A stretch of 64,000 nucleotides of DNA. Origin: Burkholderiales bacterium (GTDB lineage Bacteria > Pseudomonadota > Gammaproteobacteria > Burkholderiales > Burkholderiaceae_C). The translations under genes were made by a program, and so were the position numbers. The number at the start of each line of letters is the position of its first letter. The first letter of the stretch is position 1. The notes beneath the pieces were generated by a model. It was not told the origin of the DNA. It did no database searches and worked only from the letters and a program-made list of their open reading frames with translations. Location: NCBI GenBank assembly GCA_017307855.1, contig JAFKGD010000001.1:372001-436000 (forward strand), read 5' to 3'. This document shows positions 46,492-52,680 of the stretch, one piece after another.

Positions 46492-47547
46492 TTACTGGAA
46501 CTGGCGCAGGAAGCGGATGTCGCCGTCGAAGAACAGCCGGAGATCGTTGACGCCGTAGCGCAGCATGGTCAGCCGGTCGGGGCCCATGCCGAAGGCGAAG
46601 CCGATGTAGCGCTCGGGATCAAGCCCCATGTTGCGAACGACGTTCGGATGCACCTGGCCCGAGCCGGCTACTTCAAGCCAGCGCCCGGCCAGCGGGCCGC
46701 TCTGGAACTGGATGTCGATCTCGGCGCTGGGCTCGGTGAACGGGAAGAAGCTGGGACGGAAGCGCAGCACCAGATCGTCGCTCTCGAAGAAGGTACGGCA
46801 AAAATCGGTGAACACGACCTTGAGGTCCTTGAAGCTCACGTTCTCGCCCAGCCACAGCCCTTCGCACTGATGGAACATCGGGGAATGGGTGGCGTCGCTG
46901 TCGACGCGGTAGGTGCGGCCCGGTGCGATTACGCGGATCTCGGGCATGGCGCCGCCCGCCTCCACCGCCGCCTTGTGCCGCGCGACGTGCTGCTGGGCAT
47001 AGCGCACCTGCATCGGGCTGGTGTGCGGACGCAGGTTGAACGGGATACCGTCCGCGCCCTTCATGTCCACGTAGAACGTGTCCTGCATCGAGCGTGCGGG
47101 GTGATTGGGCGGATTGTTCAGCGAGGTGAAGCTGTGCCAGTCGGTCTCGATCTCGGGCCCGTCGGCGACGTCGAAGCCCATGCTGGCGAAGATCTGCTCG
47201 ATACGCTCCAAGGTCCGGCTCACCGGGTGAAGCCCCCCGGCCTGGCGACGGCGGCCCGGCAGCGTGACGTCCAGCGACTCGGCCTTGAGCTGCTGCTCGA
47301 GCTCGGCATCGGAAAGCGCCTGGCGGCGGGCCTGCAGCGCGGCTTCAACGGCCTGCTTGGCCACATTGATGGCAGCGCCGCGCGTCTTCTTCTCCTCCAC
47401 GGAGAGTTGCGCCATGCCCTTCATCAGCTCCGTGATGCGGCCGGCCTTGCCCAGGTACACGGCCTTGGCATTCTCGAGCTCGGCCGGTGTGGCGGCCTGG
47501 GCGAACGCGGCCTTCGCGCCGTCCACCAGGGAGTCCAGATCGTTCAT
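46492..47547 (-). CDS. pheS: Phenylalanyl-tRNA synthetase alpha subunit
   Basis: 351 residues. N-terminal coiled coil (1-90) and class II catalytic core: [19 protein letters not shown], motif 2 [19 protein letters not shown], and motif 3 [14 protein letters not shown]. It binds ATP and phenylalanine. It follows rplT across a terminator-like hairpin, as in E. coli where pheST is attenuated, but I find no Phe-rich leader peptide here. Confidence 0.97.
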
Positions 47548-47573
47548 GAATCTCTATTGCTGCGGGAAGAGGG

Positions 47574-47611
47574 AAAAAAGAAGGGGCTGAAGCGCAAGCC
47601 TCAGCCCCTTC
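47574..47611 (-). terminator. Terminator between rplT and pheS
   Basis: Minus-strand hairpin with 11-bp perfect arms (GAAGGGGCTGA / TCAGCCCCTTC, 47601-47611 pairing with 47580-47590), a 10-base loop and six T. It sits inside the translation operon, so it probably sets the pheST level by partial read-through, or pheST has its own promoter. Confidence 0.85.
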
Positions 47612-47673
47612 CTGTCTGCTCGTGAATTCCGCCGGCGAAGCCCCGAGGGGCATCCGCCGGCGTCATCGTGCGA

Positions 47674-48033
47674 TCAAGCAGCCAGCTTGGCCTTGACTTG
47701 CTCCACGATGCTGCCAAAAGCCGCCTTGTCGTGCACCGCGAGGTCGGCCAGCATCTTGCGGTCGATCTCGATGGATGCCTTCTTCAGGCCGTTGGCGAAC
47801 TGGCTGTAGGTCAGGCCCAGTTCACGCGACGCGGCGTTGATACGGGCGATCCACAGCTGGCGGAAGACACGCTTCTTGTTGCGACGATCACGGTAGGCAT
47901 ATTGCCCAGCCTTCATCACCGCTTCTTTGGCGATGCGGAAGACGTTGCCGCGACGGCCACGGAAGCCCTTGGCCAGGGCGAGCACTTTCTTGTGGCGGGC
48001 GCGAGCCGTTACACCACGTTTGACGCGAGGCAT
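47674..48033 (-). CDS. rplT: 50S ribosomal protein L20
   Basis: 119 residues: [52 protein letters not shown], and [20 protein letters not shown] are all family signatures. It binds 23S rRNA early in assembly. 26 bp after rpmI. In E. coli it also represses rpmI-rplT translation. Confidence 0.98.
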
Positions 48034-48059: not shown

Positions 48060-48263
48060 TCAAAGGCCTTGCAGGGGCAGCATCTGCGCCATGTGACCCA
48101 TGTTGGTCTCATGAACGGACACCGCACCACGCAGGTGGCGCTTGTTCTTGGTGGTCTTCTTGGTCAGGATGTGACGCTTGAAGGCTTGACCGCGCTTGAC
48201 GGTGCCACCCGGACGGACGCGAAAACGCTTTTTCGCGCTGCTCTTGGTCTTCATTTTGGGCAT
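48060..48263 (-). CDS. rpmI: 50S ribosomal protein L35
   Basis: 67 residues: [20 protein letters not shown], then [26 protein letters not shown] lies 5 bases before the ATG at 48263. A 180-bp spacer separates it from infC, long enough for a translational operator of the E. coli L20 kind, though I did not identify a specific pseudoknot. Confidence 0.97.
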
Positions 48264-49114: not shown

Positions 49115-51022
49115 TCAGCGTTTGTCGGCGACCTCGGCGGCAATCCGTTCCGAGAAGGCCTGCAGGGGCATGACACCCAGATCCTGGTTGCCCCGCGCGC
49201 GCACCGCGACGGCTCCGGCTTCCTTCTCCTTGTCACCCACGACAAGGATATAGGGCAGCTTTTGCAGCGAATGCTTCCGTATTTTATACGTAATTTTCTC
49301 GTTCTGCAGGTCAAGCTCCACCCTAAGCCCTTGATTTTGCAGCGTTTTGGCAACTTCCCGGGCGTAATCGGCCTGTGCATCGGTGATGGTGAGCACCACC
49401 ACCTGCACCGGCGCGAGCCAGCTGGGCAAGGCGCCGGAGTGATGCTCGACCAGCATGCCGATGAATCTCTCCAGGCTGCCGACGATGGCGCGGTGAAGCA
49501 TCACCGGGTGCGCACGACCGCTGGTCTCGGTGACGTATTCGGCACCCAGGCGCTCGCCCATGTTGAAGTCGACCTGCATCGTGCCGCATTGCCAGTGGCG
49601 TCCGATGGCGTCACGCAGCGTGTACTCGATCTTAGGGCCGTAGAACGCGCCATCACCCGGAGCGATGGCGAACTCGACACTCGAGCGGCGCAGGGCTTCC
49701 ATGCAGGCATGCTCTGCCTTGTCCCACAACTCATCTGACCCGACCCGGCTTTCCGGCCGCGTCGCGACCTTGTAGATGATGTCGGTGAAACCGAAATCCG
49801 CGTAGACCTTCTGAAGCTGTTCCGTGAAGGCCACGCATTCGTCCAGGATCTGGTCTTCGGTACAGAAGATATGCCCGTCGTCCTGCGTGAAGCCGCGCAC
49901 GCGCATGATGCCGTGCAGGCCGCCCGAGGGCTCGTTGCGATGGCACTGGCCAAATTCGCCGTAGCGGATCGGCAGGTCCCGGTAGCTGCGCAGGCCATGC
50001 TTGAAGATGAGCACGTGGCCCGGGCAGTTCATCGGCTTGAGCGCGTAATCGCGCTTCTCCGACTCCGTCGTGAACATGTTCTCGCGGTAGTTCTGCCAGT
50101 GGCCCGTCTTTTCCCAGAGACTCTTGTCGAGGATTTGCGGCCCCTTGACCTCCTGGTAGCCCGTGTCACGGTAGACCTGACGCATGTACTGCTCCACGGC
50201 CTGCCAGACAGCCCAGCCCTTGGGATGCCAGAACACCACGCCCGGAGCAACGTCGTCGATGTGGAACAAGTCCAGTTCGCGGCCCAGACGGCGGTGGTCG
50301 CGCTTTTCCGCTTCCTCGATCCGCTGGATGTAGGCGTCGAGGTCCTTCTTGTCGGCCCAGGCCGTGCCGTAGATGCGCTGCAACTGCTCGTTCTTGGCGT
50401 CGCCGCGCCAGTAGGCGCCCGCCAGCTTCATGAGCTTGAACACCTTGAGGAAGCGCGTATTGGGCACGTGCGGGCCGCGGCACATGTCCACGTACTCCTG
50501 GTGGTAGTACAGGCCCATGGCCGTCTCGTCGGGCATGTCGTCCACGAGACGCAGCTTGTAATCCTCGCCACGCGCCTTGAACACCTCGATCACCTCGGCG
50601 CGCGGCGTCATCTTCTTGATGACGTCGTAGTCCTGCGCGATCAGCTCCCGCATGCGCGCTTCGATGGCAGCCATGTCTTCTGGCGTGAACGGGCGCTCGA
50701 AGGCGATGTCGTAGTAGAAGCCCTCGTCGATCACCGGGCCGATCACCATCTTCGCCGTCGGGTAGAGCTGCTTGACGGCATGGCCCACGAGGTGGGCCGT
50801 GGAGTGCCGGATGATCTCGACGCCTTCGGCATCCTTGGGCGTGATGATCTGCAGGCGAGCGTCGTGATCGATCACGTCGCTGGCATCGGCAAGGCGTCCG
50901 TCGATCTTGCCCGCCACGGTCATTTTGGCCAGACCCGGACCGATGGACCGGGCGACGTCAGCAATGGAAACCGGGCCGGGGAACTCGCGTTTCGAGTTGT
51001 CGGGAAGCGTGATCTGGATCAT
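49115..51022 (-). CDS. thrS: Threonyl-tRNA synthetase
   Basis: 635 residues from the ATG at 51022 ([13 protein letters not shown]). TGS domain 1-60, editing domain with [16 protein letters not shown] and the YVDMCRGPH motif, class II core with [14 protein letters not shown] (zinc Cys), [34 protein letters not shown], and the anticodon-binding domain from about 535 ([17 protein letters not shown]). The open frame upstream is the leader region. A leader peptide and terminator precede it (51045-51162), so expression is probably attenuated by threonyl-tRNA supply. Confidence 0.97.
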
Positions 51023-51044
51023 GAGTGTGAACGGATTCTGGAAA

Positions 51045-51072
51045 CAAAAAAGCGCGGACCGGAGGCCGCGCT
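51045..51072 (-). terminator. Attenuator terminator in the thrS leader
   Basis: Minus-strand hairpin AGCGCGG ... CCGCGCT (7-bp perfect arms at 51066-51072 and 51051-51057) followed by six T, ending 23 bp before the thrS ATG. Its 5' arm can instead pair with GCCGCGC at 51106-51112, just at the stop codon of the leader peptide, giving an antiterminator. Confidence 0.82.
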
Positions 51073-51111
51073 TGCGAGTCGGAGAAGGCTGGAGCCCAGG
51101 CGAACGCGCGG

Positions 51112-51162
51112 CTACCGACCCAAGTGGCCGGTGAAAGAAGTCGCCGTAGTTCGCGGTGTCAT
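51112..51162 (-). CDS. Threonine-rich leader peptide of thrS
   Basis: 16-residue reading frame [16 protein letters not shown] ending in TAG. Five of the 16 codons are Thr (ACA, ACT, ACG, ACT, ACC), far above expectation. An AGAAAGG sequence lies upstream of the ATG. The terminator begins 40 bases after the stop codon. A ribosome waiting at the Thr codons would leave 51106-51112 free to form the antiterminator; one reaching the stop would cover it, letting the terminator form. Confidence 0.72.
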
Positions 51163-51258
51163 AACCAGCAGTGCCTTTCTCGCTCTTGTTCGTACGATGA
51201 GGGGACGGATCGCGCGGCAGTCCAGCGTGGAAAACGGAAGAGTTGCGCCGAAGCCGCG

Positions 51259-51264
51259 ATTCTA
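51259..51264 (-). promoter_or_regulatory. Candidate -10 element for thrS leader transcript
   Basis: TAGAAT on the minus strand, within GGTAGAATCGCGG, about 97 bases upstream of the leader peptide ATG and after the aceA terminator. The -35 is not convincing, so this is only a candidate. Confidence 0.35.
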
Positions 51265-51303
51265 CCTTTCCGCTGCGCGCAAGGGGTGGCGTCAAAGCAA
51301 ACA

Positions 51304-51329
51304 GGCCGGCCGCACGATGGCGGCCGGCC
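51304..51329 (-). terminator. Terminator hairpin after aceA
   Basis: 10-bp perfect arms GGCCGGCCGC / GCGGCCGGCC with a 6-base loop, followed on the minus strand by TGTTTGCTTTG, 25 bp after the aceA stop. It separates aceA from the thrS leader. Confidence 0.7.
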
Positions 51330-51354
51330 CGTTGACAGGGCGATCCGCGCTCAA

Positions 51355-52680
<1,326 letters not shown>

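Follow-up and report, generated by a model that had tools for sequence, protein, structure and literature searches.

A conserved threonine-rich leader and a candidate transcription attenuator before thrS in Burkholderiales

How do bacteria match the synthesis of threonyl-tRNA synthetase (ThrRS) to the supply of its substrate? In E. coli, thrS is controlled translationally by its own product, and in Firmicutes by T-box RNAs. Upstream of thrS in a Burkholderiales bacterium lies a short threonine-rich frame followed by a terminator, which raises the question of whether a leader peptide controls the gene there. We analyzed a window of 64,000 nucleotides containing this locus (assembly GCA_017307855.1, contig JAFKGD010000001.1, positions 372,001 to 436,000) together with related genomes. 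From sequence comparison, we consider it very likely that thrS is set by the supply of Thr-tRNA(Thr) through ribosome-mediated transcription attenuation of the classical kind found in trp, his and pheST.

The leader and its RNA regions

The synthetase gene stands first in the order thrS-infC-rpmI-rplT-pheS-pheT, where infC, rplT, pheS and pheT were assigned by profile matches and rpmI by reading of the frame ending at 48060. Its ATG start codon is at 51022 on the minus strand. Upstream on the same strand, a frame opening MTPRTT (ATG at 51160-51162, TAG at 51112-51114) carries threonine at codons 2, 5, 6, 8 and 11 (Table 1). A sequence-only reading had described this frame with its 16 codons and five threonines, and it is reproduced base for base on the minus strand. 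The same reading had noted that GCCGCGC overlaps the stop codon and is complementary to GCGCGGC in the 5' arm of a GC-rich terminator followed by six T before thrS. Both motifs lie where it had located them, GCCGCGC taking in the G of the TAG, and the terminator was seen again by reading and by a terminator scan. Its stem, AAGCGCGG(CCTCCGGT)CCGCGCTT, spans 51073-51050 and the six T 51051-51046; this is the one terminator-like site in 51020-51360, where shuffled sequences lead one to expect 0.3.

Table 1. Positions of the thrS leader features in the window
Feature	Position	Strand	Observation	Basis
thrS, threonyl-tRNA synthetase, 635 aa	49115..51022	-		TIGR00418, 723 bits (cut-off 384)
Region 4, CCGCGCTT + U tract	51046..51057	-	Terminator 3' arm	Terminator scan
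Region 3, AAGCGCGGCC	51064..51073	-	Terminator 5' arm; GCGCGGC (51071-51065) pairs with region 2	
Region 2, GCCGCGC (51112-51106) + GTTCGC (51105-51100)	51100..51112	-	GCCGCGC overlaps stop codon	
Leader frame, 16 codons + TAG	51112..51162	-	5 Thr codons of 16	Sequence reading
Small hairpin ACCGGCC(ACTTG)GGTCGGT	51114..51132	-	Just before stop codon, touches its first base	Window fold
Region 1, GCGAAC (codons 3-5)	51149..51154	-	Pairs with GTTCGC 51105-51100	Window fold
18-base core GGTTATGACACCGCGAAC around leader start	51149..51166	-	Nearly invariant in the window's family	
GAAAGG, likely ribosome-binding site of leader frame	51174..51179	-		Sequence reading, conservation in relatives
TAGAAT, possible -10 box of leader promoter (weak)	51259..51264	-		Sequence reading

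Folding of the window revealed a further pairing, absent from the sequence-only reading, of GCGAAC in region 1 with GTTCGC in region 2, plus CGGC with GCCG. This pairing completes the set 1:2, 2:3 and 3:4 of a classical attenuator. All of these pairings are possible, and 2:3 and 3:4 are mutually exclusive. The locus combines the features of an attenuator, namely a threonine-rich frame, an intrinsic terminator, an exclusive 2:3 pairing near the stop codon and a 1:2 pairing over the control codons.

We propose that RNA polymerase would transcribe the leader while a ribosome starts on MTPRTT. When charged Thr-tRNA is scarce, the ribosome would halt on the threonine codons and cover region 1, so that region 2, overlapping the stop codon and extending past it, would be free to pair with region 3; this pairing would block the terminator and thrS would be transcribed. 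When charged Thr-tRNA is ample, the ribosome would reach the stop codon and cover region 2, or would leave and allow 1:2 to form. With region 2 unavailable, region 3 would pair with region 4 and transcription would end before thrS. A shortage of charged threonine tRNA at the ribosome would thus probably raise synthesis of the enzyme. The leader RNA itself is presumably made, but scans of the leader region for sigma-70 promoters gave no match, and the promoter is therefore a putative one.

With up to 3 mismatches, a 19-base form of the core had no second copy in its own genome (the reversed control also gave 1 match). Inspection of 47530-47700 by eye showed no Phe-rich frame that could serve as a Phe leader before pheS. 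Between rplT and pheS, at about 47570-47610 on the minus strand, there is a strong terminator-like hairpin that carries a U run.

Conservation of the frame and of the pairings in the family

With at most one mismatch, the core GGTTATGACACCGCGAAC occurs in 151 of 200 genomes of the window's family, each time as a single match, against 1 of 200 for the reversed control. By a hand check, the median size of the 49 genomes that lack it at this threshold is about 3.0 Mb; several of these genomes are incomplete. A protein search gave a thrS match in 194 of the 200 genomes. We took up to 450 nucleotides upstream of thrS from the best-listed 129 of these 194 and from the window, 130 stretches in all (two, L092 and L103, are shorter). 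A frame starting ATGACnCCnCGnAC is present in 100 of them, 113-198 nucleotides before thrS. Among the 30 stretches without this frame, one (L137) has a variant core by reading. In a separate scan of 80 named loci, a set that includes Pseudomonas and Xanthomonas kin, the frame was found in 28. One Polaromonas (L065) has a decayed leader, with ATA in place of the start codon and a changed core, and keeps the terminator-like hairpin.

The threonine codons follow the reading frame. Behind MTPRT, from codon 6 to the end, threonine accounts for 287 of 1180 codons in 125 different leaders, while the two other frames of the same stretch have 15 and 33 threonine codons of 1055. Nucleotide conservation fades past codon 6, where the peptides diverge and stay threonine-rich. 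Upstream, in the ribosome-binding-site region of the 125 leaders, A at -15 and -14 reaches 0.96 and G at -12 reaches 0.94. In these leaders, invariance is 94-100% at bases -4 to -1 and at the core's three free codon positions; it is claimed for such unfixed bases only, as the search pattern fixes most bases of the core. Among the matches listed, 13 cores carry one mismatch: nine change CGA to CGG, which is synonymous, two change ATG to GTG, which keeps a start, and the other two change GGTT to GGTG before the start. These changes are synonymous, start-preserving or outside the frame, which is the pattern expected of a translated frame.

These observations bear on a simpler explanation, that the terminator is constitutive and the threonine-rich frame a by-product of a conserved RNA element that does not respond to threonine. 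It would account for the many frameless stretches of the family that keep, by eye, a GC-rich terminator-like hairpin right before thrS, and for the conservation of the core at the nucleotide level, synonymous sites included. It does not account for a threonine enrichment that outlasts nucleotide conservation (191 of 1055 codons in frame from codon 7 to the end) and occurs in frame only, nor for the kinds of core change just described among the matches listed. The leader terminator is also not needed for the isocitrate lyase gene upstream of the leader, because that gene has its own inverted repeat (51329-51304). We regard a constitutive terminator as very unlikely.

We then compared the proposed RNA structures across relatives. 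A script found a terminator in all 125 different leaders, one of them (L053) doubtful, and in 68 of 264 shuffled leaders, all of which scored below the median for the 88 real representatives. Seven stem positions form standard pairs in 85-86 of 86 terminators, with changes on both sides at outer positions; because the finder favors paired stems when it picks terminators, these percentages do not count as separate evidence. The 2:3 pairing averages -14.36 kcal/mol in the 88 representatives, compared with -13.70 (sd 0.19) for swapped partners, and 1 of 2000 swaps was as good, on related sequences for which swap tests overstate independence. Dinucleotide shuffles gave -11.91, and an upstream control window -10.53 compared with -10.22. 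In 73 of the 88 representatives, 2:3 forms a helix of 6 or more uninterrupted pairs, and the longest helix begins a median of 3 nucleotides behind the stop codon. For 1:2, the stretch folds at -20.4 compared with -18.2 when shuffled, and the duplex at -14.2 compared with -11.8 (n=88 for both); a small advantage over shuffles is seen in the upstream control window too (-5.9 compared with -5.1, p 0.0016).

The sequence-only reading had proposed looking in relatives for conserved threonine codons in a short frame and for the paired arms. Both are found in the window's family, with the threonine enrichment confined to the coding frame and the 2:3 pairing ahead of partner swaps. The pairing counts are support, not proof, because single leaders are often unremarkable (the median rank of 2:3 is 0.14-0.18, inside the shuffle range) and related sequences are not independent. 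The form of region 2 varies. It is GTTCGCG-like in 25 of the 88 representatives and takes other forms elsewhere, the window's included. In a MAFFT alignment of 60 sequences (61 entries minus one empty reference, L045) region 2 is out of register, so column covariation is uninformative for it.

A conserved hairpin over the stop codon was considered as well; across the 88 representatives it did not hold generally (p 0.11). Where region 2 is GTTCGCG-like, in 25 leaders that do not include the window's, the arms of such a hairpin fit their own counterparts, and 0 of 500 partner swaps did as well.

Ribosome position and rival controls of thrS

To relate the pairings to ribosome position, we used a folding model of the nascent RNA. 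In the 88 representatives, the modeled upstream pairing of arm 3 is 0.69 with the ribosome on Thr codon 5, 0.56 with the ribosome at the stop codon and 0.59 with none; the corresponding values for shuffled linkers are 0.61, 0.55 and 0.61. The stalled state exceeds the stop state by more than 0.1 in 40 of the 88 leaders and is lower in 9. Shuffled linkers reproduce 0.06 of the 0.12 by which the stalled and stop states differ, or half of it; real and shuffled linkers differ with p 0.027 for stall/stop and p 4e-5 for stall/none (paired test, n=88). For the window, the model gives 0.69 stalled, 0.56 at the stop codon and 0.70 without a ribosome, which means that the model does not tell a leader free of ribosomes from one with a stalled ribosome. 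With the ribosome on Thr11, the antiterminator is predicted to be the best fold even of the window's full leader, and with the ribosome at the stop codon the terminator forms. Placing the ribosome on Thr5 instead gives the terminator as the fold of the full leader, and then only the nascent RNA keeps the antiterminator. Taken with the in-frame threonines, the listed core changes and the partner swaps, the model lends support to the attenuation logic that the sequence-only reading had put forward, in which termination would occur in the leader and threonine supply would be the signal.

Could the synthetase itself be the regulator? ThrRS might recognize a leader operator that mimics tRNA(Thr), on the E. 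coli model, in which the enzyme represses its own mRNA and the controlled gene is the same. The accessible part of an attenuator survey names ThrRS once, for E. coli, as self-regulating (PMC2965389). All 11 Pseudomonas-group loci tested have a hairpin resembling the anticodon arm of tRNA-Thr, 38 nucleotides ahead of thrS, whereas 1 of the 88 family leaders has one (shuffled mean 1.4); for an operator of the E. coli type, the scan of the 88 leaders did no better than shuffles, and we rejected it. In addition, the same leader precedes two divergent types of ThrRS. Over the N-terminal 217 residues, 19 of the 200 family genomes, the window's own included, share 81-100%, with 81-93% between the window and the 18 others; among the matches listed, the other ThrRS proteins reach at most 59%. 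Autogenous control of this kind seems highly improbable here.

The Pseudomonas-group hairpins have the loop TTGGTAG (TTGGTAC in L054; the 11 loci are among L048-L071), which fits an E. coli-like operator.

The window shares with Variovorax, Xenophilus and Pseudacidovorax a ThrRS type that differs from the one most of the family has. In a tree of 34 ThrRS sequences, its clade stands beside other Burkholderiales, set off by a long branch. Replacement, recombination and fast change are candidate origins.

A T-box riboswitch or another known RNA family would be the other precedent, given that T-boxes control thrS in Firmicutes. An Rfam scan of the window matched a tRNA elsewhere and, at gathering scores, no family in the leader, which leaves these families a negligible chance.

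Spread of the leader and its place among known systems

Beyond the family, a search of 300 genomes of the order found the core (at most one mismatch) in 35: 9 from the window's own family and 26 of the 291 outside it (families f3, f8, f10, f32, f35, f39 and f47); the reversed control was found in 0 of 300. A sample of the class had the core in 3 of 274 genomes, all of the own family, with reversed-control matches in 2, and outside the order the core occurred in 0 of 271 genomes. In all, 177 genomes (151 + 26) have the core. By script, a thrS-like start lies behind the leader in 23 of 24 order-level loci read; the remaining locus (L231) has another frame there.

A wider script that looked for Arg-Thr near the start was run on 67 stretches upstream of thrS at the order level, with L265 and L268 out of register; it proposed leaders in 25, of which 21 were kept. 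Given what the script looked for, a single case may be chance. Many families thus show none. Three stretches (L247, L253 and L270, one of them not kept) have MTPLT in place of MTPRT. Some kept leaders, such as MFRTSTTTQS, MSFRTTTTGTLNLG and MQLNRTTTTS, are threonine-rich and share only CGAAC(T/G) with the core; they sit before terminators of other sequence. In 36 leaders from other families, after removal by name of four doubtful matches and six duplicates, 2:3 averages -11.0 compared with -10.2 for swapped partners, with 3 of 200 swaps as good.

The leaders of families f47, f39 and f10 keep MTPRT, often with no threonine codon besides T2 and T5 (for instance MTPRTCKVSEPRR in f47). They are the main observation left unexplained by plain sensing of a threonine run. 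One may suppose instead that the invariant MTPRT core senses more than Thr-tRNA, through slow CGA-ACU decoding, the nascent peptide or an RNA-binding factor, and that the threonine run was added in some lineages. The two-threonine families that keep the core would fit, as would the GGTT before the leader start, which is 98-100% invariant though outside the proposed pairings. On the other side, leaders of the window's family are threonine-rich, and pairing of region 1 explains the conservation of CGCGAAC. Taken together, these signals seem unlikely to be what the core serves. Put in its strongest form, the 18-base core GGUUAUGACACCGCGAAC would itself be an ancient sensing element of the order, acting for instance by programmed slow CGA-ACU decoding or by factor binding at the leader start, and the two-threonine lineages would still control thrS by it; we hold this to be a doubtful reading. 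If it were true, the core would do more than carry threonine codons.

Two further elements were noticed before thrS. In many families of the order (for instance L274, L276, L283 and L299), the leader or thrS is immediately preceded by what reads like a tRNA-Val(GAC) gene; the T-loop of this gene, GGTTCGA, is complementary to TCGAAC of some leaders. Xanthomonas kin have their own conserved element, GTGYGACATG opening frames of 6-8 codons such as MSTTTAHR, in 17 of 18 loci (L010, L012, L014, L015, L017-L024, L027, L031, L032, L035 and L064), with a terminator by script in 14 of the 17. From its sequence, this element is perhaps an independent threonine leader.

The attenuation that we favor for the MTPRT leader belongs to a familiar class. 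The E. coli pheST attenuator uses the leader peptide PheM, and the trp, his and thr operons are attenuated as well. All share with the present locus a short frame rich in cognate codons, three competing pairings and a terminator, and pheST, a synthetase operon, also resembles it in the kind of gene controlled. The present leader differs in concerning thrS and threonine, in its occurrence in Burkholderiales kin, in its nearly invariant 18 bases and in the position of region 2 over the stop codon.

The sequence-only reading had taken leader-peptide attenuation of thrS to be a different solution from those of E. coli and Firmicutes. That contrast stands, but the arrangement is not as unusual as it implied, as an earlier study proposed a thrL-thrS leader peptide for Streptomyces lividans TK24 (18 aa, MKRVRPFLETTPGFVPAR; PMC8079986). 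As far as the accessible part of that paper goes, the S. lividans leader likewise has threonine codons (two) before thrS, and differs in leaderless transcription, unclear termination and a peptide unlike MTPRT. Attenuators have also been proposed for trpS and leuS in Streptomyces, again classical attenuation of synthetase genes, for other amino acids and in another phylum (PMC1262725, accessible part). For Cupriavidus metallidurans, PMC9045368 includes among its promoters one assigned to Rmet_R0015, a gene it labels thrS. Term searches in the available parts of PMC4833913, PMC5688073, PMC4603805, PMC4035088 and PMC7494200 gave nothing on an MTPRT leader of thrS. Titles and opening lines of abstracts in a literature search named no thrS leader in Betaproteobacteria; the attenuator surveys Lopatovskaya 2010 and Vitreschak 2004 may contain it. 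The proposed switch is of a known class and deeply conserved, with this example apparently unlisted.

If the proposed mechanism is correct, many members of a large order control thrS by attenuation, not by an operator of the E. coli kind or a T-box, and infC, rpmI, rplT and pheST may be under the same attenuator. The element merits an RNA-family entry and annotation in the genomes that have the core, whose near invariance raises the question of what role the start of the leader has besides coding. Related groups would then control one essential gene in at least three unrelated ways: the tRNA-like operator of Pseudomonas, the MTPRT leader described here and perhaps the MSTT leader of Xanthomonas kin.
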